A stretch of DNA of 64,000 nucleotides from an uncultured Pelagibacteraceae bacterium (GTDB taxonomy: Bacteria; Pseudomonadota; Alphaproteobacteria; Pelagibacterales; Pelagibacteraceae), in NCBI GenBank assembly GCA_902557775.1, contig CACEBD010000002.1, positions 74,144 through 138,143 of the forward strand. Reading direction: 5' to 3'. Positions 49,011 to 62,834 of the stretch are shown here, one piece after another. The notes below the pieces were generated by a model. It ran no database searches, was not told the origin of the DNA, and worked only from the letters and a program-made list of their open reading frames with translations. Every line of letters begins with the position of its first letter. The first letter of the stretch is position 1. A program made the position numbers and the translations under genes.

Positions 49011-49038
49011 TGTGGTGTCTATGTGGTGTCCGAGATTA
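49011..49038 (+). repeat. 28-bp direct repeat, left copy
   Basis: Identical to 49701-49728. It begins TGTGGTGTCTATGTGGTGTC and continues CGAGATTA. Internally it contains TGTGGTGTC twice with 11-base spacing. The last three bases form the stop codon of the secreted protein gene at 49036-49677. Confidence 0.9.
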
Positions 49039-49677
49039 TTTATAAATAGCGTGCAACCAATCATTTACACCATCTGTTTTAATTGTAACGCCGACGTTAG
49101 TAACATAATCTTTTCTTACTTTACCTTTATAAAATAAACAAAGTGCCTCCACTTCTAAATATTTAGACTTTGGTGTTAGTTGAATAGCACTTCTAAAATA
49201 CTTGCTCTTTCCATACTTGTCTGTTGGTGGCACGCCCTCATCACTCTGTATCAAAGGATTGTTAAAAACAGCTTTTATATCATTAAAGATTTTATCTTTT
49301 TGTTTTTTGCAATCTTGAACATTTTTAATATTTTTTCTTTTTTCATTTGTAATTGCTCCAGCTACAGCTTCTATCACATAGTTTTTATCATTTTTTTTGT
49401 AAGTTATTTCTACAGCCTCAAACACTGCGAAATCAAAATCTGCAACATTTATATAATTTCCAGTTTTTTTTGTATAAATAGTTGTCACTTCATATTTTTG
49501 ATTAGGAGAGTTTATAGGGTTATTTTTAGTTCCGTTTTTAATTAATGACTCGGGAAAAAAATCTAAAGCACTATCACCAATACTCATTCCTTCAATCTGT
49601 AAGTCTCTAATATCATCTGCTTGAGATAGGTTTATTAAAAATAAGCTTAGAATAATTATAGCTAAAAATTTTTTCAT
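49036..49677 (-). CDS. secreted protein, paralogue A of an undescribed family
   Basis: No function is recognised. The 213-residue product has a signal peptide (hydrophobic 4-18, cleavage likely after SQA at 20) and then DDIRDLQIEGMSIGDSALDFF, the family hallmark shared with four other proteins in this window. Further shared traits are a central YVIEAVAG segment, a cysteine near the middle followed by a Lys-rich helix, KYGKSKY (TGKSxY in the others) and a second cysteine in a late strand. It is the longest of the five, with an insert after the hallmark. It is the only gene in the tRNA-Thr element and lies precisely between the two 28-bp repeats. Confidence 0.8.
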   Translation of the reverse strand: MKKFLAIIILSLFLINLSQADDIRDLQIEGMSIGDSALDFFPESLIKNGTKNNPINSPNQKYEVTTIYTKKTGNYINVADFDFAVFEAVEITYKKNDKNYVIEAVAGAITNEKRKNIKNVQDCKKQKDKIFNDIKAVFNNPLIQSDEGVPPTDKYGKSKYFRSAIQLTPKSKYLEVEALCLFYKGKVRKDYVTNVGVTIKTDGVNDWLHAIYK

Positions 49678-50785: not shown

Positions 50786-50811
50786 TATCTCCTAGTCTGT
50801 TCACTAGTTTG
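50786..50811 (+). repeat. island-internal end repeat, left copy
   Basis: TATCTCCTAGTC, five bases, ACTAGTTTG. The same framework occurs at 62858-62882 near the other island end. It overlaps the stop codon of the adjacent secreted-protein gene. It is imperfect and short, so chance or gene-family homology remains possible. Confidence 0.4.
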
Positions 50812-51388
50812 CTTCTTCATTCCTCCATTTTAAAAAATAATTTGGTGAAATTGCTACAGAAAGATTGTCATTAAAATTCCGTTTCTTTTCTGTAACTTTT
50901 GACCAATTCACACACCAAACTCTAAGTGAGGAACCGTCTTTCAAATCGAAATCACTTACATAGGCTATACTTTTAAGATCGTCAATTTTATATTTAAAAT
51001 CATATTCATTAAACTTTAATTTTTTATAATTAGATCTAATAGAGTCAACAATTTTCTTTTTTTTAAGCAAACAATCATTAAAATTTTTTTTATAAAATAT
51101 GCCACCTGATAAGGAATGTATTATATATTGATTATCATTTTTTTTAAGATGAAATGATAAAACTTCGTATTCTTTTTGATTTTTGATTTTGATGCCATCT
51201 AGCAAATAATATTTATCACTTTTAGGATAGTAAGTTTTCTTCGCATTTTTAATCTCTTTCTTGTCATAATAGTTTAATAAACTATCTCCAATACTTATCC
51301 CTTCAATTTGAAAGTCCTTGATATCATCAGCCTGGGATAGGACTGTGGAGCATAAACTTAAAACTATTATCAAAGAAATTTTTTTCAT
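50804..51388 (-). CDS. secreted protein, paralogue B
   Basis: A 194-residue member of the same unnamed family: signal peptide (start MKKISLIIVL, cleavage after SQA), then DDIKDFQIEGISIGDSLLNYY. YIIHSLSGG in the centre and cysteines in NDCLLKKKK and VWCVNW match the family. TGKS is not conserved here (DLKSIAYVS). I chose the ATG at 51388 because it begins the signal peptide; in-frame starts up to 51409 exist. It is the last gene of the nine-gene minus-strand run, 30 bases after paralogue C. Confidence 0.78.
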   Translation of the reverse strand: MKKISLIIVLSLCSTVLSQADDIKDFQIEGISIGDSLLNYYDKKEIKNAKKTYYPKSDKYYLLDGIKIKNQKEYEVLSFHLKKNDNQYIIHSLSGGIFYKKNFNDCLLKKKKIVDSIRSNYKKLKFNEYDFKYKIDDLKSIAYVSDFDLKDGSSLRVWCVNWSKVTEKKRNFNDNLSVAISPNYFLKWRNEEAN

Positions 51389-51418
51389 TAATAATCTTAA
51401 CATATACATCTAGTTTGG

Positions 51419-52012
51419 TTAGTTTAACCATCTATCGACTTTTGTCGAACGTATAGTCATGTACAAATGATCTGCTTTATTTTTAATATGGTCACTCCAG
51501 TCATAACATGAAATAGCTACATGGTAGTTATCCGCTAATGAAAAATATATGTCAGTATAACTAGACTTACCTGTTGGGTCTGCATTTTTAAAAATTGTTT
51601 TTACGGGTCCAATTTGCTTAGACTTTTTAAACATTGATTTAATTTCATCTGCAATAATAATTTGTTTTTTATAACAATTATTTATATCTTTTATTTCTTT
51701 ATCATTTCCGAAATACATAACGCCAGCTATAGTAACAATTTTATAACTTTCATCCCCATACTTCGTAAATATATCAACAAAATCATATTGTTTAAATTTA
51801 TCGCTTTCTAAAGCGAGTGCTGTAAATTTATTCTTTTCTAATCTATCATACCAATTAACAATACTTGTCGTAATTTTTTTTTTTGTAAAATGATCTAATA
51901 AACTATCACCAATACTCATTCCCTCTATTTCGAAATCTCTAATATCATTAGCGATAGATTTTTCAATGTTGATAGTGAGGAGAAAAGCAAATATTAAAAA
52001 CTTTTTAATCAT
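51419..52012 (-). CDS. secreted protein, paralogue C
   Basis: A 197-residue exported protein: signal peptide to about residue 21 (EKSIA), then NDIRDFEIEGMSIGDSLLDHF. Family features: YKIVTIAGVMYF, a cysteine in INNCYKKQ, ADPTGKSSYTDI and the late ISCYDWS cysteine. It follows the Sel1-repeat gene after six bases and precedes paralogue B; B and C probably arose by duplication but have diverged widely. Function unknown. Confidence 0.8.
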   Translation of the reverse strand: MIKKFLIFAFLLTINIEKSIANDIRDFEIEGMSIGDSLLDHFTKKKITTSIVNWYDRLEKNKFTALALESDKFKQYDFVDIFTKYGDESYKIVTIAGVMYFGNDKEIKDINNCYKKQIIIADEIKSMFKKSKQIGPVKTIFKNADPTGKSSYTDIYFSLADNYHVAISCYDWSDHIKNKADHLYMTIRSTKVDRWLN

Positions 52013-52798: not shown

Positions 52799-53383
52799 TT
52801 ATTTTCCTCTATTATTTACGATAAATTCCATAAATTGATGAGTATTAACAGATACCTTTAAATTTGCTCTCAATTTACTTTCTTTTGTAAAATCATAACA
52901 ATTTATATTTATCGATTCAAGACTGGGGTAAGGCTTGAGATAATTCTGTATACCATAAATCATTGATTTTCCTGTCTTATCATAAGAACTAGGAAATTTA
53001 GTTTCTTCACTTTCATTTATTTTAAATTCCTTTTTTATATAAGACTGAATTTCTTTTTTTATTGAATTGCATTCCTCTAAATTTTCATAATAATAAATTC
53101 CTGAAATACCTACTATTATATATTTTCTATCATCCTTTTTAACGCTAACATTTAATTTATCATATTGTTTAAGATTGTGTATTTTCTCAAACCTATATGT
53201 AACAAATTTATCAGTTTTGTAATTAAAATTGGCATTTATAGATTGAATTTCTTCTTCAGTTGCATAATCTAAAAGACTTTCACCAATTATAATACCCTCG
53301 ATTTCAAAATCTTTTAAATTATCAGCTATTGAATGCCTAACGGTAATCAATAATAGAATTAATATTAAAAAAAGTTTTTTCAT
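52799..53383 (-). CDS. secreted protein, paralogue D
   Basis: A 194-residue family member: signal peptide to RHSIA (about 20), then DNLKDFEIEGIIIGESLLDYA, where Glu replaces the usual Asp of IGDS. Retains YIIVGISGIYYY, cysteines in LEECNSIKK and NINCYDF, and DKTGKSMIYG. Encoded between prsW-like and the small membrane protein genes, three bases from the former. Confidence 0.8.
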   Translation of the reverse strand: MKKLFLILILLLITVRHSIADNLKDFEIEGIIIGESLLDYATEEEIQSINANFNYKTDKFVTYRFEKIHNLKQYDKLNVSVKKDDRKYIIVGISGIYYYENLEECNSIKKEIQSYIKKEFKINESEETKFPSSYDKTGKSMIYGIQNYLKPYPSLESININCYDFTKESKLRANLKVSVNTHQFMEFIVNNRGK

Positions 53384-53386
53384 AAA

Positions 53387-54232
53387 TTAAAAAAGTATAG
53401 CTGACATAACTATTAAAGTTACTAAAATAGCAGCTGATACATATGAATATAAAACTTCGATATTTTGTACTCGAGCTTTATCTATTGATTCAGTAATTTT
53501 TTTTAACTGCTCTCTTCTATAATAGTAAATAAGACTAATCATAAAAATGACGGATAAAAGAGGAAAAATACTTGCCGCTCCATAGTAATTATACGCGCCG
53601 TGAAAAACTATTGGCAAAGATAAAGATAGAATTAACATTATCCTTCTTTTAAAAATATTTCTCTCTTCAAATAAATTTAAACTCAGTAACCACCCCATTA
53701 AAACTCCAAAACCCATATGCATAACAAGTGGATAATATCTTGTTTTAACCATTTCTATTGTCCATGCATTTTCTAGACTTGAGCTAGATAAATAGCCTAC
53801 ATTTTCTATTGCTGCATAACCAAGACCTATAGCGGCACCATAAACAATTGCATCCATTGGTTCATTTAAAGCTGATAATCTGACACAAAAGAATATAAGT
53901 AACGCAAATTTTATTCCCTCTTCCAGGAAAGCTGCTCGAAAAAAGCTTTGAAAAGCATTTTCTGCTACAGGAAAAGTAGCTCCTGCTACTTTATAACCGC
54001 CATCAATATATTCATTGTAAGCGTTTATATCTAAACCTAATAAAGGGCCTAAGTGATCCTCAGCAAGCATTATGAATAGTTGCAATGGCAAAACTATAGA
54101 TGCGCCTAATAAAAATGAAGAAAATAAAAATTTACCTGGTTCAGGAAATCTATCTGATTTCCAAACTGCAATTCCTAGCAATATAGGTGGTAGTACTGTT
54201 GAAATATAAAGAAAGGAAGGATCGGTAAACAT
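53387..54232 (-). CDS. PrsW-family intramembrane protease
   Basis: A 281-residue polytopic membrane protein. All PrsW-type motifs are visible: the EEGIK motif (Glu104, Glu105, Lys108), DAIVYGAAIGLGYAAIENVGY (Asp127, Glu143, Asn144), MHMGFGVLMG (His172) and FHGAYN (His211, Asn215). Bacillus PrsW performs site-1 cleavage of an anti-sigma factor. No sigma/anti-sigma pair is encoded nearby, so the target is unknown; the single-span or signal-bearing proteins of the same operon are candidate substrates. It overlaps the vWA-like gene by one base. Confidence 0.88.
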   Translation of the reverse strand: MFTDPSFLYISTVLPPILLGIAVWKSDRFPEPGKFLFSSFLLGASIVLPLQLFIMLAEDHLGPLLGLDINAYNEYIDGGYKVAGATFPVAENAFQSFFRAAFLEEGIKFALLIFFCVRLSALNEPMDAIVYGAAIGLGYAAIENVGYLSSSSLENAWTIEMVKTRYYPLVMHMGFGVLMGWLLSLNLFEERNIFKRRIMLILSLSLPIVFHGAYNYYGAASIFPLLSVIFMISLIYYYRREQLKKITESIDKARVQNIEVLYSYVSAAILVTLIVMSAILF

Positions 54233-55146
54233 TATTGAATATCTAGTTGTTTAATCACCTCATAATTATCAACACCGATGTAATTGAATAAATCTTCCCA
54301 GAGTTTTACTAGTGAACTTGATAGACCATCTCTAGTTTCATAATCATGATTAATATATAAAATTGTTACTTTTAAATTTTTTAAGGTTTGTTTATTTGGT
54401 TTTCTATCATCTATATAATTCTTTACTTTTTTATTTTTTATTAAACTTGCAAATGATTTACATTTATTTGGTTTTAAAATTTCTAAACTAGTTTTGCAGT
54501 GGTTATAAAATGAAAATCTTTTAGAAAATTGCATTAAATCTGAAACAATAATTAATTCTCTCTCTGGATAGTCAGGAGTAAAATCTACTTTTGCTTCTCT
54601 TAAAACATGAAAGAAATATTCAAATATTAAACTTTGTTTTCCTTCGGGAGCGTTTACACTTAAGAAATTTTTTTCAAATTTATTAGTCAATTCATTCCAA
54701 ACAAAAAATGCTTCTTTTATTCTCTTGTATCCTTCACACTTTGTATTTGCTTCTTCACCTTCAAATTTAGATTTATCGCCAGTTTTAAATCTACATTTTG
54801 AGTAATTAATAGTTTGTGATTGAGGCGGAGTATCGTCAATTTTCATGTAAGAAATCTTATGATAAGGAGGGGTGTTTTTTATTAAAACGTCTCCAAAAAT
54901 TCTTCCTTGAATCCAATCAACTTGGGCTTGTTTTAAGGGAGATGTAAAATCGACTAAAAAAAACTTGTGACCTAGTTTTGAATTTAAAGGACAAAATTGG
55001 TTAGGATCTTCAAAATCAATTATAATAGGATTCTTGCTATCCTGCCAACATTTAGGGTAACCTTTGGGAAGTTCCGCAAAAGACTTAACAGAAATTGATA
55101 ATAAAAGAATTATAAAAATAGATAATTTAACAGTATTAAATTTCAT
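54232..55146 (-). CDS. exported protein with a von Willebrand factor A-like fold (putative)
   Basis: A 304-residue protein with a signal peptide (about 1-24). FFLVDFTSPLKQAQVDWI at 62-79 resembles the first strand and metal-site loop of vWA domains (D66, T68, S69), and ELIIVSDLMQFSKRFSFY at 197-214 resembles the later strand with Asp203. VTILYINH (260-267) could be a further strand. Several cysteines may form disulfides. The classification rests on pattern recognition and is tentative. It overlaps the downstream PrsW gene and the upstream coiled-coil membrane gene, so these three are translationally linked. Confidence 0.6.
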   Translation of the reverse strand: MKFNTVKLSIFIILLLSISVKSFAELPKGYPKCWQDSKNPIIIDFEDPNQFCPLNSKLGHKFFLVDFTSPLKQAQVDWIQGRIFGDVLIKNTPPYHKISYMKIDDTPPQSQTINYSKCRFKTGDKSKFEGEEANTKCEGYKRIKEAFFVWNELTNKFEKNFLSVNAPEGKQSLIFEYFFHVLREAKVDFTPDYPERELIIVSDLMQFSKRFSFYNHCKTSLEILKPNKCKSFASLIKNKKVKNYIDDRKPNKQTLKNLKVTILYINHDYETRDGLSSSLVKLWEDLFNYIGVDNYEVIKQLDIQ

Positions 55147-56635
55147 ATTTCTTTCTTATATCTTCAATCTTTGAATTAATTTCACTTTCATAAGTGTTAA
55201 TTAAATTAATATGATCATTAGCAGCAGATTGTATTTTATTTTGATAACTTTCTATTTTTTTTTCAATTTCATCTTTGCTTAAATATAAAACTGCAACGTC
55301 AGAAAATACTTCTTTAGGATCACTTTTTCTTGGACTTAAATTATAATAACGAGTTTTCATTTTACCATTAGCATCTTTCCAATATTTTGGTACGTCATCT
55401 GTTCTGAAGTTTGCATTGATGGATCTATATTCGCCTAAAGCGTGGTCTATAGAGTCATCAATTTCATTAGCGAATCTTTTATAGCTTGAAAATGTGTTCT
55501 CTAAAGATGTTATATTCGGTCTCCACTGTGCTCCTAATATGTTTGATAAAATTTTGTCTCTTTTTTCGCCGGTATTTTTTATCTCATCTTTAAATATTTT
55601 TTGAACTTCTGTGGCTAAATGTTCTCTTATTCTATTAATTTCTTTTTTATCCTCATTTCTTGTTTTACCAATATTTCCAAATTCAGGGTATGTGTCTCCA
55701 AAAAAGTATCCATCAATTAAAGATGCTATCGCAAATCCAATTCCTAAAAAAATTAATACCATTGAAATAAAATTTAGTTCAACAGTCCAAGGTAAAAGTT
55801 CATTTGCTGTTTGGGCTGCTTGATCTACACTTGAAGTAGTTCCTCTCATCTTATCAAGCTGTGATACACCACCTGTATCGTGAATTGCTCTATATGCTCC
55901 TAAAATCCAATTTAAATAAAATATAAAAACTAGGTAAACGGTTAATCCTATTTTACCTATTACTCTTCTACTTTGCTTAATATGATTAAAGTTTTTTAAT
56001 GCAAAGAAACCAATTCCAAAAGAGACCAAAACATTGAGAGCGGCTACAGTAATAGAAACAGCTAAACCTGCTTTATCACCACCACCAAACGCTGGACCAA
56101 GAATTCTTCCGTTTGCTTGATACTCAATAAGAAATAAAATTAAGATTACTGAAAGACCAATTATTATATTCAATGTTGTTAACGACTTTGGCTCTCTATT
56201 TAATTTATTTTCCAATTTAAAATTTCTCACTTCTCTATCATGAGTATTGTATGAGTCTTTTAAACTAGATAATCTTCCCTCAGCACTTACTAATGTCTGT
56301 TGTATCCTCCCTTTAAAATCTTCAATATAAAAGTTTTTTTGTCCAAGCTTGGCAGTGCTATCGATAATTTTGTCTTTAATTGAATTTAAATAAGAGGCGG
56401 CTTTTGAAACTTGATCATTTCTTATTTCATCTGCGTATACAATTGCTTCATTTTCACAGATAGAAAAATTTTCAGAATTTGACCTTGGAATATTGTTTTT
56501 GCCATCTGTAGTGGCATTTTCTTTTAGACTTATTTTATCTTCTAAAGCTTTAACTTTTATATTTTCAAAATCGTAGCTCATATTATTTTTTTTAAAAATT
56601 CTCTTAATTTTATTTATTAGTTTTTTTAATTTCAT
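55136..56635 (-). CDS. four-helix membrane protein with coiled-coil flanks
   Basis: A 499-residue protein of unknown family. Residues 20-150 are soluble and helical with coiled-coil character; four membrane helices lie at about 153-172, 189-213, 227-247 and 284-308; the C-terminal 180 residues are again charged and helical. The loop between helices 1 and 2 contains GPAFGGGDKAG. The start may be at 56635 or at the internal Met19 (56581). Its topology suggests a scaffold or anchor for the vWA-like and PrsW-like proteins encoded in overlap, but nothing shows an enzymatic activity. Confidence 0.7.
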   Translation of the reverse strand: MKLKKLINKIKRIFKKNNMSYDFENIKVKALEDKISLKENATTDGKNNIPRSNSENFSICENEAIVYADEIRNDQVSKAASYLNSIKDKIIDSTAKLGQKNFYIEDFKGRIQQTLVSAEGRLSSLKDSYNTHDREVRNFKLENKLNREPKSLTTLNIIIGLSVILILFLIEYQANGRILGPAFGGGDKAGLAVSITVAALNVLVSFGIGFFALKNFNHIKQSRRVIGKIGLTVYLVFIFYLNWILGAYRAIHDTGGVSQLDKMRGTTSSVDQAAQTANELLPWTVELNFISMVLIFLGIGFAIASLIDGYFFGDTYPEFGNIGKTRNEDKKEINRIREHLATEVQKIFKDEIKNTGEKRDKILSNILGAQWRPNITSLENTFSSYKRFANEIDDSIDHALGEYRSINANFRTDDVPKYWKDANGKMKTRYYNLSPRKSDPKEVFSDVAVLYLSKDEIEKKIESYQNKIQSAANDHINLINTYESEINSKIEDIRKKYEI

Positions 56636-57081: not shown

Positions 57082-57315
57082 ATGAAAAACATAATTTTAT
57101 CAATTTTTATAATTTTTGGTTCAAGCTCTTTATATGCTTCAGAAATGAATGAGCTATTAGATCAAAATTATAAAATAATCAAAACTGAGATAATAAAATT
57201 TGATCAAGATGCTCAAAAAATTTTTACTTTGCAAAATGGTAAAAATATTTTCATATGCTCTGTTCAAATAGAAGACATGAGCGGTTTAATTGGCTCTGAA
57301 TGCATAAAACCGTAA
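57082..57315 (+). CDS. small secreted protein (77 residues)
   Basis: Signal peptide of about 20 residues ending YAS, then a 57-residue mature domain (LLDQNYKIIKTEIIKF...FTLQNGKNIFICSV...SECIKP) with two cysteines that could pair. The pattern of an N-terminal helix, a 'yki' strand and a late 'iyiC' strand is seen in many small proteobacterial periplasmic proteins of unknown role. It opens the plus-strand run toward the caspase gene. Confidence 0.65.
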   Translation: MKNIILSIFIIFGSSSLYASEMNELLDQNYKIIKTEIIKFDQDAQKIFTLQNGKNIFICSVQIEDMSGLIGSECIKP

Positions 57316-57319
57316 AATA

Positions 57320-57517
57320 ATGAAAAAGATTTTAATTATAATAGGTTTTAGTTTGTTAATATCGTGTGATCGCGCGGAGCCATTAGTAAAGAAATCTAAG
57401 ACTGGTATTTGTCATAAAGCTGGCACTAGATATTACGACCAAACGAAATACTTTAAAAATTTCTCATCAATTGAAGATTGTATAAAAAGTGGTGGTAGAT
57501 TACCAAAAAGAAGATAA
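57320..57517 (+). CDS. small lipoprotein with CH...YY...C...GGRLP motif
   Basis: A 65-residue protein with a lipobox LISC (Cys16), so probably membrane-anchored in the periplasm. The mature part GICHKAGTRYYDQTKYF and IEDCIKSGGRLPK has Cys/His residues in a spacing recurring in small modules attached to various bacterial proteins; metal binding is possible. It starts four bases after the preceding stop. Confidence 0.65.
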   Translation: MKKILIIIGFSLLISCDRAEPLVKKSKTGICHKAGTRYYDQTKYFKNFSSIEDCIKSGGRLPKRR

Positions 57518-57559: not shown

Positions 57560-58975
57560 ATGTTAAAAAATTGTAAAAAACTTAGCATACTGATTTTATC
57601 AAGTATTTTTCTATTTTCATCAGTTGAGGCTAACTGGATTACTAAAAAAAGTAACAAATCTAAAGAGATAATTAAGGAAGAAAAAAAACAAAAGTCTGAA
57701 TGGATTAAACTTAAAAAAAAAGAAATCAAAGCAAATCAAAAAGAATTTAAAGAAAATAAAAAGAATATCTCTGATGAAACTAAGACATGGATTACAAAAA
57801 AATCTAAGAAAGATACCTACATACAATCCATAGAAGAGATTCCATACAATAAAGATCGAATATATTTAATTGCTAATAGTTTAAGTACAGGAAAAGTTAT
57901 TTATGGTTATTTAAATTGGAATGACGATAAATTTAAAACGGGTCTAGATATGGCAAACATCAAAGGTAAAAGTTATATAAATGATGGTAAAACTATATGT
58001 AATATTGGAATTGACATAAATTTTAGAAATAAAATGATTGGAACTTTAAACGGAGATTGTACTAACAAAACACAGTACAACGCTGTTTTAGAATTTGCGG
58101 AAAAGCAATCAGCTGGGCTAATGGTATCCTCAACTGGTGAAAGGTTTGTTTTTGATTTGGTGAGTGTAAAAAATGATGCAATAAAAAAATTTGCCTCGCT
58201 TAAAAATAATGACACTTTAATCAACCAGCCCATTAGATCTAAATTGAACGTAAGCCCAAAAGGTAATTACTATGCTTTACTCATTGGAAATAGTGATTAC
58301 AAAAAATGGAGTTCTTTATCCTCTCCAATAAACGACGTAAAAGAAATTGGAAAAATTCTTAAAACTAAATATAATTTCAAAAGCGTTACTACACTTGAAA
58401 ATGCCAATCGTGCTGAAATTTTTCAATCTTTGAAGAAACTGAAGTCTTCTGTAACCGACGAAGACTATGTTTTAATTTATTATGGCGGACATGGAGATCA
58501 GGAAACGCAAAGAGCTTATTGGATACCTGTTGATGCTGGAAAGGAGTGGGATGAAAATTGGATTGACACAATCACAATCACTACTGCTGTTCAGAGAATA
58601 AAAGCGAAACATATATTGGTAATGATTGACTCTTGTTATTTAGGAACAAGCTTTAAAGGAAAACAAAATATTAATGTATCTGAGGCTGATATAAGTGCTA
58701 AAGAGGCTATTAAAAGTTTAAATAATAGAGCGGGATTAGTAATGGCTTCAGGGGGCGCTACTCCTGTAGTAGATGCAAATATAGACAATAAACATTCATT
58801 GTTTGCTTATAAGTTTATAGACATTTTAAAAAAAAATTCAGATTTCATAACTTCACAAAATATCTATTCACAAATAAAAAAATACCACGCAAATGAAAGA
58901 CAAACTCCTCAATTTTATGGAGTAGCTAATTGGGGTCATTTAGAGGGAGATTTTGTGTTTAAAGTAAAAAAATAA
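57560..58975 (+). CDS. exported caspase-like cysteine protease (peptidase C14, orthocaspase type)
   Basis: A 471-residue protein with a signal peptide (1-24), a Lys-rich region with coiled-coil character (26-100), a small beta domain (about 100-225) and a p20-like caspase domain (about 234-468). The catalytic dyad is intact: His311 in YYGGHGD and Cys359 in IDSCYLG. ALLIGNSDYKKWSSL and INDVKEIGKIL open the domain as in bacterial caspase homologues. Metacaspases cleave after Lys/Arg, and the linker is full of Lys, compatible with self-processing. The motif WITKKSxK occurs at 26-33 and 77-84 and again as WITRKDNK in the next protein. The stop overlaps the start of the HtrA-like gene (TAATG). Confidence 0.88.
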   Translation: MLKNCKKLSILILSSIFLFSSVEANWITKKSNKSKEIIKEEKKQKSEWIKLKKKEIKANQKEFKENKKNISDETKTWITKKSKKDTYIQSIEEIPYNKDRIYLIANSLSTGKVIYGYLNWNDDKFKTGLDMANIKGKSYINDGKTICNIGIDINFRNKMIGTLNGDCTNKTQYNAVLEFAEKQSAGLMVSSTGERFVFDLVSVKNDAIKKFASLKNNDTLINQPIRSKLNVSPKGNYYALLIGNSDYKKWSSLSSPINDVKEIGKILKTKYNFKSVTTLENANRAEIFQSLKKLKSSVTDEDYVLIYYGGHGDQETQRAYWIPVDAGKEWDENWIDTITITTAVQRIKAKHILVMIDSCYLGTSFKGKQNINVSEADISAKEAIKSLNNRAGLVMASGGATPVVDANIDNKHSLFAYKFIDILKKNSDFITSQNIYSQIKKYHANERQTPQFYGVANWGHLEGDFVFKVKK

Positions 58976-60252
58976 TGAAAAAAATATTTTTTTTTCTAAT
59001 CATCAATCTATTAATGTTGCCAGCTTATTCGGAGATTAATAGTAAATTAATTTTAGAGTCAAAAGTAAAAGGGAAAGAGTCTATTATAATTGCAGTTACT
59101 CCTCTCACCAGTAAAAAACAAATTAAGGAATTAAAAGTAAATGTAGAGTCTAATAGAAATTTCTTAAATGTTATAAGGCCAAAATTAATCAGCAAAAATA
59201 AAAATAGACCTCCTAGAACTAAATTCAAAGGACCGGCTGAGGAAATTTTTAAAGATTATGCGAAAAGTGTTGTTTTTATAGGAAACTATAAAAAAAATGG
59301 CTCAGGTTCTGGATTCGTTATTAATCATAAAGGAAAAAAAATAATTACAAATTGGCATGTTATTGAAGGCTCAAAAAAAGTAAGGGTGTGGTTAAAACCT
59401 AAAAATTTAGTGAATGAAAGATACATGTTAGATAATTTAGACTCGTATGAAGCAAGAGTAATAAAGATAGATAAAGAGAAGGACTTAGCTTTATTAGAAA
59501 TCGTTGATATGCCAGATGATATTAAACCTGTACAATTTGGTGATTTTGAAAAGGTAAATGTTGGTGAAACAGCTTTTGCTATTGGCCATCCAGGAGATTT
59601 AATTTGGACTTTCAGTAATGGGATGGTGAGCCAATTAAGACAAGATTATAAATGGAAATATAAAAATTCTCATCACTTTGCAGATGTAATACAAATCCAG
59701 GTTCCGATAAATCCTGGAAACTCAGGTGGCCCTTTATTTAATAAAAATAAAAAATTAATTGGAGTAAATACTTTTACTGCTGATGGCGAAAATTTAAATT
59801 TTGCTGTATCAGTAAATGATATGATTGAGTTTTTAAATAAGCCTGAAAAAAAAATAAAAGATAATAAATATATTCAAAAGAGAAAAAAGAGTCCTACCTG
59901 GATCACTAGAAAAGATAATAAAACTAAAAACAATAATATAGATAAAAAGTATCCTAATGCTCAAAAAGGAGATATGAATGAAAACGGATCTACCGATATA
60001 TGGTTTTTAGATGAAAATAAAAATGGAAAAATAGACACTGCAGTTATAGATGCGAATGAAGATGGTATTATTGAAACAGTTGCGTTCGATGAAAATGAAA
60101 ATGAAAACTTTGAAATATTTCTTTTTGATGATGACTTAGATGGCAATGCCGACAGAGCGGAAATTGATGAAGATGATAACGGTTCTTCAGATATTATGGC
60201 ATTCGATACTGATCAAGATGGTAAATGGGATAAATATGAAAAAATATCTTAA
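58975..60252 (+). CDS. exported HtrA-like serine protease with calcium-binding-like repeats
   Basis: A 425-residue protein with a signal peptide (about 1-19) and a trypsin-fold domain (about 88-288) with the triad His128 (NWHV), Asp170 (KEKDLALLEI) and Ser250 (GNSGGP). No PDZ domain follows. After a basic linker, residues 333-419 hold seven tandem 13-residue repeats starting at 333, 346, 359, 372, 385, 398 and 411, each of the form D-x-[DN]-x-[DN]-G-x-x-[DE], like calcium-binding EF-loop or thrombospondin-3 repeats. Translational coupling to the caspase-like gene suggests the two proteases act together; calcium dependence is inference. Confidence 0.9.
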   Translation: MKKIFFFLIINLLMLPAYSEINSKLILESKVKGKESIIIAVTPLTSKKQIKELKVNVESNRNFLNVIRPKLISKNKNRPPRTKFKGPAEEIFKDYAKSVVFIGNYKKNGSGSGFVINHKGKKIITNWHVIEGSKKVRVWLKPKNLVNERYMLDNLDSYEARVIKIDKEKDLALLEIVDMPDDIKPVQFGDFEKVNVGETAFAIGHPGDLIWTFSNGMVSQLRQDYKWKYKNSHHFADVIQIQVPINPGNSGGPLFNKNKKLIGVNTFTADGENLNFAVSVNDMIEFLNKPEKKIKDNKYIQKRKKSPTWITRKDNKTKNNNIDKKYPNAQKGDMNENGSTDIWFLDENKNGKIDTAVIDANEDGIIETVAFDENENENFEIFLFDDDLDGNADRAEIDEDDNGSSDIMAFDTDQDGKWDKYEKIS

Positions 60253-60253
60253 A

Positions 60254-60733
60254 CTATCTTTGCTGCTTACTTTTGCTATCTATTGTAAGTTTAATTTTTA
60301 GAATTTTATTCTCTAAATCTTTTATAGCTTCAAAAATATCTTTTTTTTCTAAAGCCGATATCTCAACACCCTTCTCACCTTTGGGATCCTTGGCCTCTTT
60401 AACTAGTTCCGTGAGTTTTCCATGTAATATTGTAGATTTAACCAGCATTTCATTTATATCTTTATTCTCAAAGTTATCAGCTTTATCCAACAATTGAACA
60501 ATCATATATTCGTAAGCTGTTAACAAAGGTGGTGCTTTACCCTTTTTAATACAAGCTTGGTCAAGTTTAAATGAGTCGTTATGATCTATTTCTTGAGCTA
60601 AATCAGGATTACTGCATTTTCTTATATAAGAAGAAGTTTTACCTATCGCCTCATTGATTTCATCATCAGATAATATTTTTAAAACCTCCATTAAACCACT
60701 CTCTATAGAGGCATTTTTTCTTATTTTTGCCAT
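60254..60733 (-). CDS. helix-turn-helix-like regulatory protein (putative, phage-type)
   Basis: A 159-residue cytoplasmic protein, the only soluble non-exported product in the island. ILSDDEINEAIGKTSSYIRKCSNPD looks like a helix-turn-helix of the kind in phage CII-like regulators (core EINEAIGKTSSYIRKCS), followed by IDHNDSFKLDQACIKKGKAPPLL, a pattern shared by prophage-borne proteins of alphaproteobacteria. The C-terminal half is a charged coiled-coil. It is convergent with the HtrA-like gene and divergent from the ion-channel gene, and could regulate either divergent region. Confidence 0.55.
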   Translation of the reverse strand: MAKIRKNASIESGLMEVLKILSDDEINEAIGKTSSYIRKCSNPDLAQEIDHNDSFKLDQACIKKGKAPPLLTAYEYMIVQLLDKADNFENKDINEMLVKSTILHGKLTELVKEAKDPKGEKGVEISALEKKDIFEAIKDLENKILKIKLTIDSKSKQQR

Positions 60734-60777
60734 TTCAAATATTATGATTATAATAAATCAAACTCAACTTATTGTTT

Positions 60778-62241
60778 ATGAATTTTACTAAATATAAATA
60801 TATAATTTTGCTTTTTTTAAGCACTATATTTTCAAATATTTTTCAAGCCAATGCTAGTATAGAGTTAGAATTTAATAATCGTATACTTCAAAGTAATATA
60901 ATTAAATCTTACCCATTCCAAGAAACAAGGTATGATATAGGTTTGTTTTATGATTTTTCTTGGGATCATAATAAAAAGCAAATAATTATCAAGAGAGATA
61001 AAGAAAACTATCCAGTGATAAGGTTCTCTTTGTTCGATAAAAAAAATTTTCCTCAAGGTATTTCAGTGCAAAAATATAATGATTTAGATTTATCTAAGGT
61101 TTCTGACAAAATAATTAATGAATTAAATAAAAAAAAGGAGAAAGCTAAAATTACTTTAAATAATAATAAAGTAATTAATCTTAAACCCCGCATCTATGAC
61201 TTCAATGATGTAAAGCTTTCAAGTTTTAATTTAGATTACATAAATAATATAGACACTAATAAAGGTTTGCTTGAAATATCATTTAGTGCTGATTTTACAA
61301 ATAAAAGACCAGAATTAAATAAATTTGCTAAAGATTTACTTAAAGATGATTTTTACCAAGCTATGAATGAGAACGCGCCTTATCCTATTCAAGAAGTTGA
61401 AATTAAAGAGTATAAATATGATGTTGATATTAGAAAAGGCGTAAATACTCCAGATGTCGCTAATAGATCTCAAATTGATTTTACTTACGACAATGGGGAA
61501 GTAAGAACTGTGCGTCAGGAGTCTGGTATAGGTCAGTTTAGACAAACGTTCGACTTTAAAAATTTTCCTTTTGACAAACAAATACTAAAAATTAAAATTG
61601 CCTCTGGAGCTAGAAGCACTGCAAATATTAATGAGGCTTGGCCAAAAACTGGAAAAGCCGCCGTTCATTTTATAACACCAGCTGAAGGAGCTTTTTTAGG
61701 ATTAGAAAATTATTTAACTAATGTATCAGAGAATTACTTAAAAGAATGGACAGTAAAAAACATTAATATAGAAAGCGATGAAATAATAGTTGAAAATTTT
61801 TATAACAAATATTTAGATAAGACTCATTCTTATAATGAAAATTCAATCGACTTAATATTAAATATTGAAAGAAATTCAGCTCATTATATTTATAAAATTA
61901 TAATACCTATCTTTTTAATTCTAAGTATAGCTTGGTACGTATTATGGATTCCCACTGAAAAACTTGACGCAAGGTTAAACACCTCTATTGTGGCTCTTTT
62001 GGCTTTAATAGCTTATAATTTTGTTTTTTTAGATGACATACCAAAATTAAATTACCTTACAGCTTTAGATAAATATATTTTACTATCTTACATTTGGTGC
62101 TGTATTCCAATATTTATGAGTATTGGATTTAGTAAATTTATAGTCAAGAATCAGAGAAAAGTTGTTGTAATAAATAAAAAATTAAGATCGTGGCTGGGAA
62201 TTATTTACTTCTTGTTTACAATTCAGATATTTAATTTTTAA
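60778..62241 (+). CDS. prokaryotic pentameric ligand-gated ion channel
   Basis: A 487-residue protein (ATG at 60778; an upstream TTG is possible). Signal peptide to about 26, an extra N-terminal domain to about 205, then the ligand-binding beta-sandwich with the loop FRQTFDFKNFPFDKQILKI, whose FPFDxQ core marks the family. Four membrane helices follow: M1 with a central Pro (KIIIPIFLILSIAWYVLW), M2 after RLNTSIVALLALIAYNF, M3 (YILLSYIWCCIPIF) and M4 (WLGIIYFLFTIQIF). The two Cys of the eukaryotic Cys-loop are absent, as in GLIC and ELIC. An N-terminal extra domain is known from DeCLIC. Ligand and ion selectivity unknown. Confidence 0.85.
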   Translation: MNFTKYKYIILLFLSTIFSNIFQANASIELEFNNRILQSNIIKSYPFQETRYDIGLFYDFSWDHNKKQIIIKRDKENYPVIRFSLFDKKNFPQGISVQKYNDLDLSKVSDKIINELNKKKEKAKITLNNNKVINLKPRIYDFNDVKLSSFNLDYINNIDTNKGLLEISFSADFTNKRPELNKFAKDLLKDDFYQAMNENAPYPIQEVEIKEYKYDVDIRKGVNTPDVANRSQIDFTYDNGEVRTVRQESGIGQFRQTFDFKNFPFDKQILKIKIASGARSTANINEAWPKTGKAAVHFITPAEGAFLGLENYLTNVSENYLKEWTVKNINIESDEIIVENFYNKYLDKTHSYNENSIDLILNIERNSAHYIYKIIIPIFLILSIAWYVLWIPTEKLDARLNTSIVALLALIAYNFVFLDDIPKLNYLTALDKYILLSYIWCCIPIFMSIGFSKFIVKNQRKVVVINKKLRSWLGIIYFLFTIQIFNF

Positions 62242-62258
62242 TACATAGATTTTTCTCA

Positions 62259-62834
62259 TTATTTATAATGTACATTATCTAAAAAATCTCTAAATTCATT
62301 TAATCCAAGAGTAACTGAAAAACGATCATATTTTCCTTCAGCTTCTAATTTTTTACTCATGTCAAAACAAATTATTTCTGCATAACCATTTGAAAAATGA
62401 TAAGAAATTCTCTCATAAGTACTTTTACCAGTTTTATCCATTGGGTGCTTACCTTTATCAATTATACTTTTTGATGATGATATCTTTTTAAAATCATTTG
62501 ATACATTTTCCATTTTCATTTTGCATTCTTTAAAATTATCAATCCATGTAATGCCATCTAAGTTATAAATTTTATAATTTGGATCGTTATTTTTTACTGT
62601 CACTTGAACACCATCGTAGGGTTTAAACTTAGTAGTATTAAAAAAATAATATTTAAAAGTTTTATTTTTATAAAAGAACTCTTCGTCTGAATTTTTTAGC
62701 TCATTTTTTGTAAAATATTTAAGAGCACTATCGCCAAGACTAATAACATCTAATTGAAATTCTTTGACGTCATCAGCATATGAATGAACAAATGTGCATA
62801 AAATTATAATCAGTATCTTTAGAAGTTTTTTCAT
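62259..62834 (-). CDS. secreted protein, paralogue E
   Basis: A 191-residue family member: signal peptide to VHSYA (about 20), then DDVKEFQLDVISLGDSALKYF, the most diverged hallmark of the five. It keeps YKIYNLDGITW, a cysteine in FKECKMKM, MDKTGKSTYERI and the late EIICFDMS cysteine. It stands alone at the right end of the island, convergent with the ion-channel gene, just inside the tRNA-Leu remnant. Confidence 0.8.
   Translation of the reverse strand: MKKLLKILIIILCTFVHSYADDVKEFQLDVISLGDSALKYFTKNELKNSDEEFFYKNKTFKYYFFNTTKFKPYDGVQVTVKNNDPNYKIYNLDGITWIDNFKECKMKMENVSNDFKKISSSKSIIDKGKHPMDKTGKSTYERISYHFSNGYAEIICFDMSKKLEAEGKYDRFSVTLGLNEFRDFLDNVHYK

Follow-up and report, generated by a model that had tools for sequence, protein, structure and literature searches.

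We found that a SAR11 genome encodes an exported caspase homologue directly upstream of an exported HtrA-like protease with an Asp-rich repeat tail, that this pair occurs in at least 32 SAR11 loci belonging to several genera, and that one motif, [W/Y]-I-x-[K/R]-K, is present in the linkers of the two proteins. The reading that we favor, tentatively and chiefly from sequence, is that of a SAR11-specific periplasmic protease pair in which the caspase would recognize the motif in its own sequence and in the linker of the HtrA-like protein, and would probably cut there.

The caspase and its HtrA-like partner

The window (the whole stretch of 64,000 nucleotides that was analyzed) contains, on its forward strand, an exported C14 caspase homologue (57560..58975, an ORF of 471 aa) and an exported, trypsin-fold, HtrA-like protease lacking a PDZ domain (58975..60252, 425 aa), both assigned by Pfam, alignment, and structural model. 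As the original prediction had it, the two ORFs share bases of a TAATG stop-start junction (58973..58977, forward strand), the overlap proper being a single base common to both. Both proteins were also correctly predicted to have signal peptides, since their N-termini are of the Sec type by inspection (MLKNCKKLSILILSSIFLFSSVEA before N in the caspase, MKKIFFFLIINLLMLPAYS before E in the HtrA-like protein) and a crude hydropathy rule concurs. In the caspase, the signal peptide is followed by a helical linker, a beta domain (residues ~95 to 205), and the caspase domain (~236 to 471), the protein matching Peptidase_C14 (PF00656) with an E value of 8.9e-23. The HtrA-like protein (Trypsin_2, E value of 4.6e-28) consists of a signal peptide, a protease domain (~85 to 290), a linker, and a tail of seven 13-residue D-x-N-x-[DN]-G repeats (333 to 423). 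The predicted catalytic residues are in place, the dyad H311/C359 being unvaried across 26 aligned caspases and the triad H128/D170/S250 across 29 aligned HtrA-like proteins, and none of the close homologues has lost them.

AlphaFold models were built from the proteins of the window and of the genome contigs. The caspase model (pLDDT of 77) is strand-rich at residues 100 to 201, and its domain at 232 to 471 has AtMCA4 and MALT1 as nearest folds (6w8r and 4i1r; Z of 23.3, 2.4-2.5 Å over ~200 residues). The same domain aligns to MALT1 residues 338 to 564, a stretch possibly including a p10-like part, and MALT1 is also the nearest PDB sequence (E value of 4.5e-14). With its His-Cys dyad in a caspase fold, the protein belongs to the C14 family. 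The acidic S1 pair, D259 and D357, is unvaried as well and, with the equivalence taken from sequence alignment, corresponds to a pocket for Lys or Arg at P1; the S1 pocket residues of TbMC2 are Asp95 and Asp211 (PMC6426788), and, apart from caspases, C14 members cleave after Arg or Lys (PMC5756287). The dyad, the fold, and the acidic pair are thus common to the prokaryotic C14 homologues (ortho- and metacaspases), MALT1, and the plant metacaspases, whereas the signal peptide, the motif-bearing linker, the beta domain, and the tailed HtrA-like partner are additions of the SAR11 caspase.

The name "HtrA-like" of the original prediction fits only in part. The exported trypsin fold with its His-Asp-Ser triad is shared with the HtrA/Deg proteases (S1C; Deg1, DegS, DegQ), and a fold search with the model (pLDDT of 73) places its protease domain closest to the solved domains of Deg1 and HtrA. 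However, no PDZ domain was found at an E value of ≤1, the repeat tail standing in its place, and the score against the Do family of NCBIfam (TIGR02037) is 134.7 bits, far under the cut-off of 416.2. The tail is modeled as one strand per 13 residues across the seven repeats; it matched no Pfam repeat, and the fold search listed the protease domain only. Going by the repeat pattern, the tail probably binds calcium. This Asp/Asn-rich tail had been overlooked in the original prediction, as had the motif common to both proteins and the wider envelope module described below.

Trypsin-like and caspase-like domains are likewise joined in the trypsin-p20(QC)-DUF4384 fusion proteins of Alphaproteobacteria (PMC6426788). 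Those are single polypeptides with a pseudo-caspase (QC dyad), whereas the SAR11 pair is made of two ORFs with an HC dyad in the caspase, both proteins being catalytically intact as judged by their residues, and it falls outside that class.

Distribution of the pair and export of caspases

Adjacent genes for an exported C14 and an exported trypsin-fold protease were sought in other genomes, and the pairing is not unique to this one; the count of loci given above covers 30 same-strand pairs read in named genomes, several of which are genomes met again, together with the window and G526. The tailed HtrA-like protein was found in 14 of the 169 genomes of the genus (E value of ≤1e-40), and the caspase lies directly upstream of it in 10 of these (10/169). 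Sampling of the family gave the pair in 21 of 397 genomes, distributed over five genera, while caspases are otherwise rare in the order (10/347 sampled genomes). Those named relatives in which the gene order recurs are single-cell genomes of Pelagibacteraceae (L100, for example, is AG-913-I14), which places the host of the window in SAR11 (Pelagibacterales). Identity to the window protein is 34-49% for the caspases and 43-87% for the HtrA-like proteins, the latter range excluding a 34% row of the alignment that comes from a locus without this pair (L142). For the 30 same-strand pairs read at other SAR11 loci, the overlap is four bases (ATGA) in 16 and one base in two, and the rest are spaced from -98 to +6 bases; the overlapping junction is more than chance. 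Given the patchy occurrence, the unvaried catalytic residues, and the rarity of caspases in the order, the pair is accessory, spread over several genera, and under selection. A single-sequence scan of the genome contigs with the caspase gave no match, but an alignment-based scan did find relatives. At one locus (L093 5631-7122/L111, genome G424), the caspase is interrupted, apparently by a frameshift in the Lys-rich stretch, and reads as a 74-aa N-terminal frame plus a 326-aa ORF; this may be an assembly error.

The original prediction had regarded export as the unusual property of this caspase. This did not hold, since signal- or lipoprotein-type N-termini were called by a crude hydropathy rule in 35 of the 40 nearest non-SAR11 full-length caspases; 46 metacaspases with a single N-terminal helix, possibly a signal peptide, have been described before (PMC3501461). 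Export is common in this caspase branch and the trypsin-fold partner is the unusual part: such a gene adjoins the caspase in only 1 of 44 non-SAR11 loci (L144), where it is an ordinary PDZ-bearing DegP-like gene. Many gammaproteobacterial caspase homologues (among L129-L176) have lipobox-type N-termini, such as LLAACASP in L129 or LLLGCTT in L153, and are predicted to be lipoproteins.

A motif common to both proteases

In the caspases, the motif begins one or two residues past the predicted signal-peptide cleavage site and recurs downstream (in the window, WITKK at 26-30, WIKLKKK at 48-54, and WITKK at 77-81). In the HtrA-like proteins it is a tandem, (Y/F/W)IxKK and then (W/Y)Ix[KR]K ten residues apart, located between the protease domain and the tail; the window protein has YIQKR (299-303) as the first and WITRK (309-313) as the second. 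The strict form W[IL]x[KR]K was counted 106 times at the pair loci, 73 times in caspases and 33 in HtrA-like proteins, and not once in the 70,493 aa of the other ORFs at these loci, and its three copies among the window ORFs (20,047 aa) are all in this pair. The relaxed aromatic form does have a background (21 in the same 70,493 aa), so that the case depends on the strict form and on how well the motif is conserved, its columns showing 95-97% conservation versus 62-65% for the remaining linker. Tyrosine replaces tryptophan in the motifs of both partners in G535 and on the HtrA side in G473. We also considered whether WITKK might be a tag that sorts exported SAR11 proteins in general and rejected this for the present genome, given that counts of the pattern are near control in genomes without the pair and that, in the whole genome of the window, only three other ORFs contain an in-frame WIxKK, one copy each.

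The motif is present in 31 of 31 HtrA-like proteins from loci with this caspase and absent from the six tailed ones without it (G027, G320, G156, G431, G513, and G408). The Fisher probability of this co-occurrence, 4e-7, is overstated, because the six form one clade with long branches in the tree and the co-occurrence counts as one evolutionary contrast. That contrast, together with the generally Lys-rich linkers, would suit a lineage-specific linker feature with no functional link behind it, the pair simply traveling together in an island. We consider this very improbable, since the same motif occurs in two non-homologous proteins, far above the conservation of their linkers, and is practically absent elsewhere. 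Its presence in both proteins suggests instead a physical or an enzyme-substrate link between them. The original prediction of a periplasmic cascade, in which one protease may activate the other, is supported in part, by the conserved pairing and by this motif.

As an enzyme-substrate link, which is our preferred reading, the caspase would cut after Lys or Arg, as characterized non-animal C14 proteases do. Recognition of the motif in its own N-terminal linker would result in self-processing or in pseudo-substrate inhibition, while recognition in the linker between the HtrA-like protease domain and the Asp-rich, probably calcium-binding tail would allow a cut freeing the protease from the tail, so that the HtrA-like enzyme would be switched on or able to move. 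Cutting is favored by the unvaried S1 pair, by the likeness to MALT1 and AtMCA4, by the confinement of the motif to the pair, and by linkers that are probably flexible, given their low model confidence (pLDDT below 50 at 293-306 of the HtrA-like protein, low also at the first caspase motif); in G027 and G320, relatives of pair members have ECF sigma/anti-sigma genes next to them, which was counted in its favor too. Against this reading, the K/R-rich linkers offer many other sites, the contrast described above involves a single clade, and a second type of exported SAR11 caspase (G306 and G272) bears the motif without a motif-bearing HtrA neighbor.

Docking without cutting is a close rival, to which we give a sizeable but minor share of the probability. 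The motif would then be an anchoring element and not a cleavage site, holding the proteases together or to a shared membrane partner while they act side by side on other substrates. Its copies are repeated at variable spacing, the combination of an aromatic and an aliphatic residue with KK suits an interface, and the first caspase copy is at the mature N-terminus, where cutting would take off no more than about six residues, which fits docking better. The two genomes with the second caspase type add to this. G306 codes for an 87-aa exported protein (L098 4993-5256) that has WIKKK, WITKN, and WITKK and then, at its C-terminus, a membrane helix; its gene lies 1.7 kb upstream of that for the motif-bearing caspase (a search for relatives of the 87-aa protein gave only weak matches, and those inspected were unrelated). 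In G272 (L338 4464-7444), a YIQKK lipoprotein lies directly upstream of, and overlaps, an exported caspase with several YI[TK]KK copies, so that the motif may be common to a different kind of partner there. However, these are single examples, and K-K pairs in an open linker should be prone to attack by a C14 protease whose S1 pocket is acidic. In the g9 and g10 caspases and in G306, the first motif is followed by a SHOCT-like stretch that is also found in unrelated proteins, there without the motif.

An envelope module with a channel homologue

Around the pair lies a recurrent envelope module, to which the two proteases are an addition; it includes a pLGIC-like channel, a PrsW-type protease, a small cytoplasmic protein, and a small lipoprotein. 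Upstream on the forward strand, a gene for a small exported protein of 77 aa with a signal peptide (57082..57315), which has relatives in the corresponding position in L100, L102, L103, L105, and L116, is probably the first of the transcription unit of the pair; a promoter and terminator scan at the locus gave nothing above shuffles. It is followed on the same strand by the small lipoprotein (57320..57517, 65 aa, lipobox LLISC, ...GICHKAGTRYYDQTKYF..IEDCIKSGGRLPKRR), whose gene ends 42 nt before the caspase ATG; about 12 other loci have it as well, 42-54 nt ahead of the caspase gene. The gene for the small cytoplasmic protein is p156 (60254..60733, reverse strand), which converges on the HtrA-like gene; the protein had no Pfam family at an E value of ≤0.01 and only a weak YmfL-type match (0.061). 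Next to it, a homologue of pentameric ligand-gated ion channels of the ELIC/GLIC type with a signal peptide (60772..62241, forward strand) matches ELIC in the PDB (6hjy, E value of 1.3e-13), which establishes the homology, and NCBIfam LGIC_1 (9.5e-24, below the cut-off of that family). A divergent operon on the reverse strand codes for the PrsW-type intramembrane protease (53387..54232; PF13367, E value of 5.3e-25), the exported protein s304 (54232..55146), and the membrane protein m499 (55136..56635), and these three recur together at pair loci. Most pair loci are also surrounded by copies of an exported family of ~200 aa (..DFEIEGMSIGDSLLDYF..), up to six or more in a row; those of the window are at 62259-62834, 52799-53383, 51419-52012, 50804-51409, and 49036-49677.

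Both p156 and the pLGIC accompany nearly all pairs. Within the genus, the pLGIC is present in 11 of the 14 genomes with the tailed HtrA-like protein versus 9 of the 155 others (Fisher probability of 9e-10, relatedness ignored). Several pLGICs without the HtrA-like gene have p156 and/or PrsW beside them, and three genomes (G156, G431, and G513) show the order PrsW, pLGIC, HtrA without a caspase. Given these groupings without HtrA or without caspase, the module seems to have been built in layers, the caspase being an added part. In SAR11, a channel homologue of the neurotransmitter-receptor type thus recurs next to PrsW, p156, and a tailed protease; a text search of a study of bacterial pLGIC neighborhoods (PMC549065) found no mention of proteases. 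In alphaproteobacterial contigs without a tailed HtrA, caspases were also seen near a pLGIC and p156 (L149) and near m499 and s304 (L164).

DegS/DegP-type enzymes are envelope sensors. The HtrA-like protease could accordingly be the sensor and process the caspase, and since relatives of it accompany pLGIC and PrsW without a caspase in the three genomes just mentioned, it may be the older member. We regard this reversed order as improbable, because HtrA enzymes cleave after small aliphatic residues, a preference that mismatches the K-K motif, and because the PDZ sensing domains are absent.

Little probability likewise goes to a cell-death or anti-phage set in which the proteases kill the infected cell, perhaps with the channel as pore. 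Gasdermin systems are cytoplasmic defense systems with caspase-like or trypsin-like proteases. Caspase-nuclease and trypsin-nuclease pairs are found in cytoplasmic defense too (PMC12799240), and these canu and trypsin-nuclease pairs and the bacterial gasdermin operons resemble the SAR11 pair in combining a caspase- or trypsin-type protease with a partner that is possibly activated. The patchy distribution at different chromosomal sites and the PADLOC matches (3.4e-12 for the caspase, 8.4e-22 to RT-Protease) would fit such a role. However, those systems are intracellular and immune, whereas the SAR11 pair consists of two proteases, each of them exported; among the genes beside the pair we recognized no sensor NTPase, nuclease, or gasdermin; and the PADLOC matches are confined to the protease domains. 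Viral contigs gave no relative of the caspase, their matches to the HtrA-like protein covering essentially the trypsin domain only, and PHROGs gave generic protease matches.

Under our preferred reading, the setting would be an envelope-sensing module with a pLGIC-type channel, PrsW, and p156, and the pair would have more in common with the regulated proteolysis of DegS and PrsW than with a death effector. The locus resembles DegS-type anti-sigma proteolysis and PrsW systems in having an exported HtrA-like protease and PrsW in one neighborhood; it differs in adding a caspase and a pLGIC and in having no recognized sigma/anti-sigma pair in the window. Such a pair does adjoin relatives of the pair members elsewhere: exported MORN-repeat caspases or MORN proteins lie with ECF sigma/anti-sigma genes at L042 (G027:C15), L097 (G320:C14), and L178, and at the first two loci a tailed HtrA-like gene is part of the same locus. 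Operons of metacaspase and sigma-70 genes have been reported (PMC3501461). The most elaborate form of the proposal, a periplasmic caspase cascade in SAR11 signaling, in which a Lys/Arg-specific caspase with a tetrapeptide-like W-I-x-K preference would free a serine protease from its calcium-binding tail under the control of the pLGIC and PrsW, appears rather unlikely as a whole.

Among the open-licence papers searched, none mentions caspase, SAR11, and HtrA together, and none mentions SAR11 together with a ligand-gated ion channel. SAR11 cells have small genomes that keep few accessory systems. Few substrates of bacterial caspase homologues are known, and this genome itself points to a possible substrate together with a possible recognition sequence. 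If the preferred reading is true, a caspase-family protease would act in envelope signaling, not in cell death, beside a channel of the neurotransmitter-receptor type.
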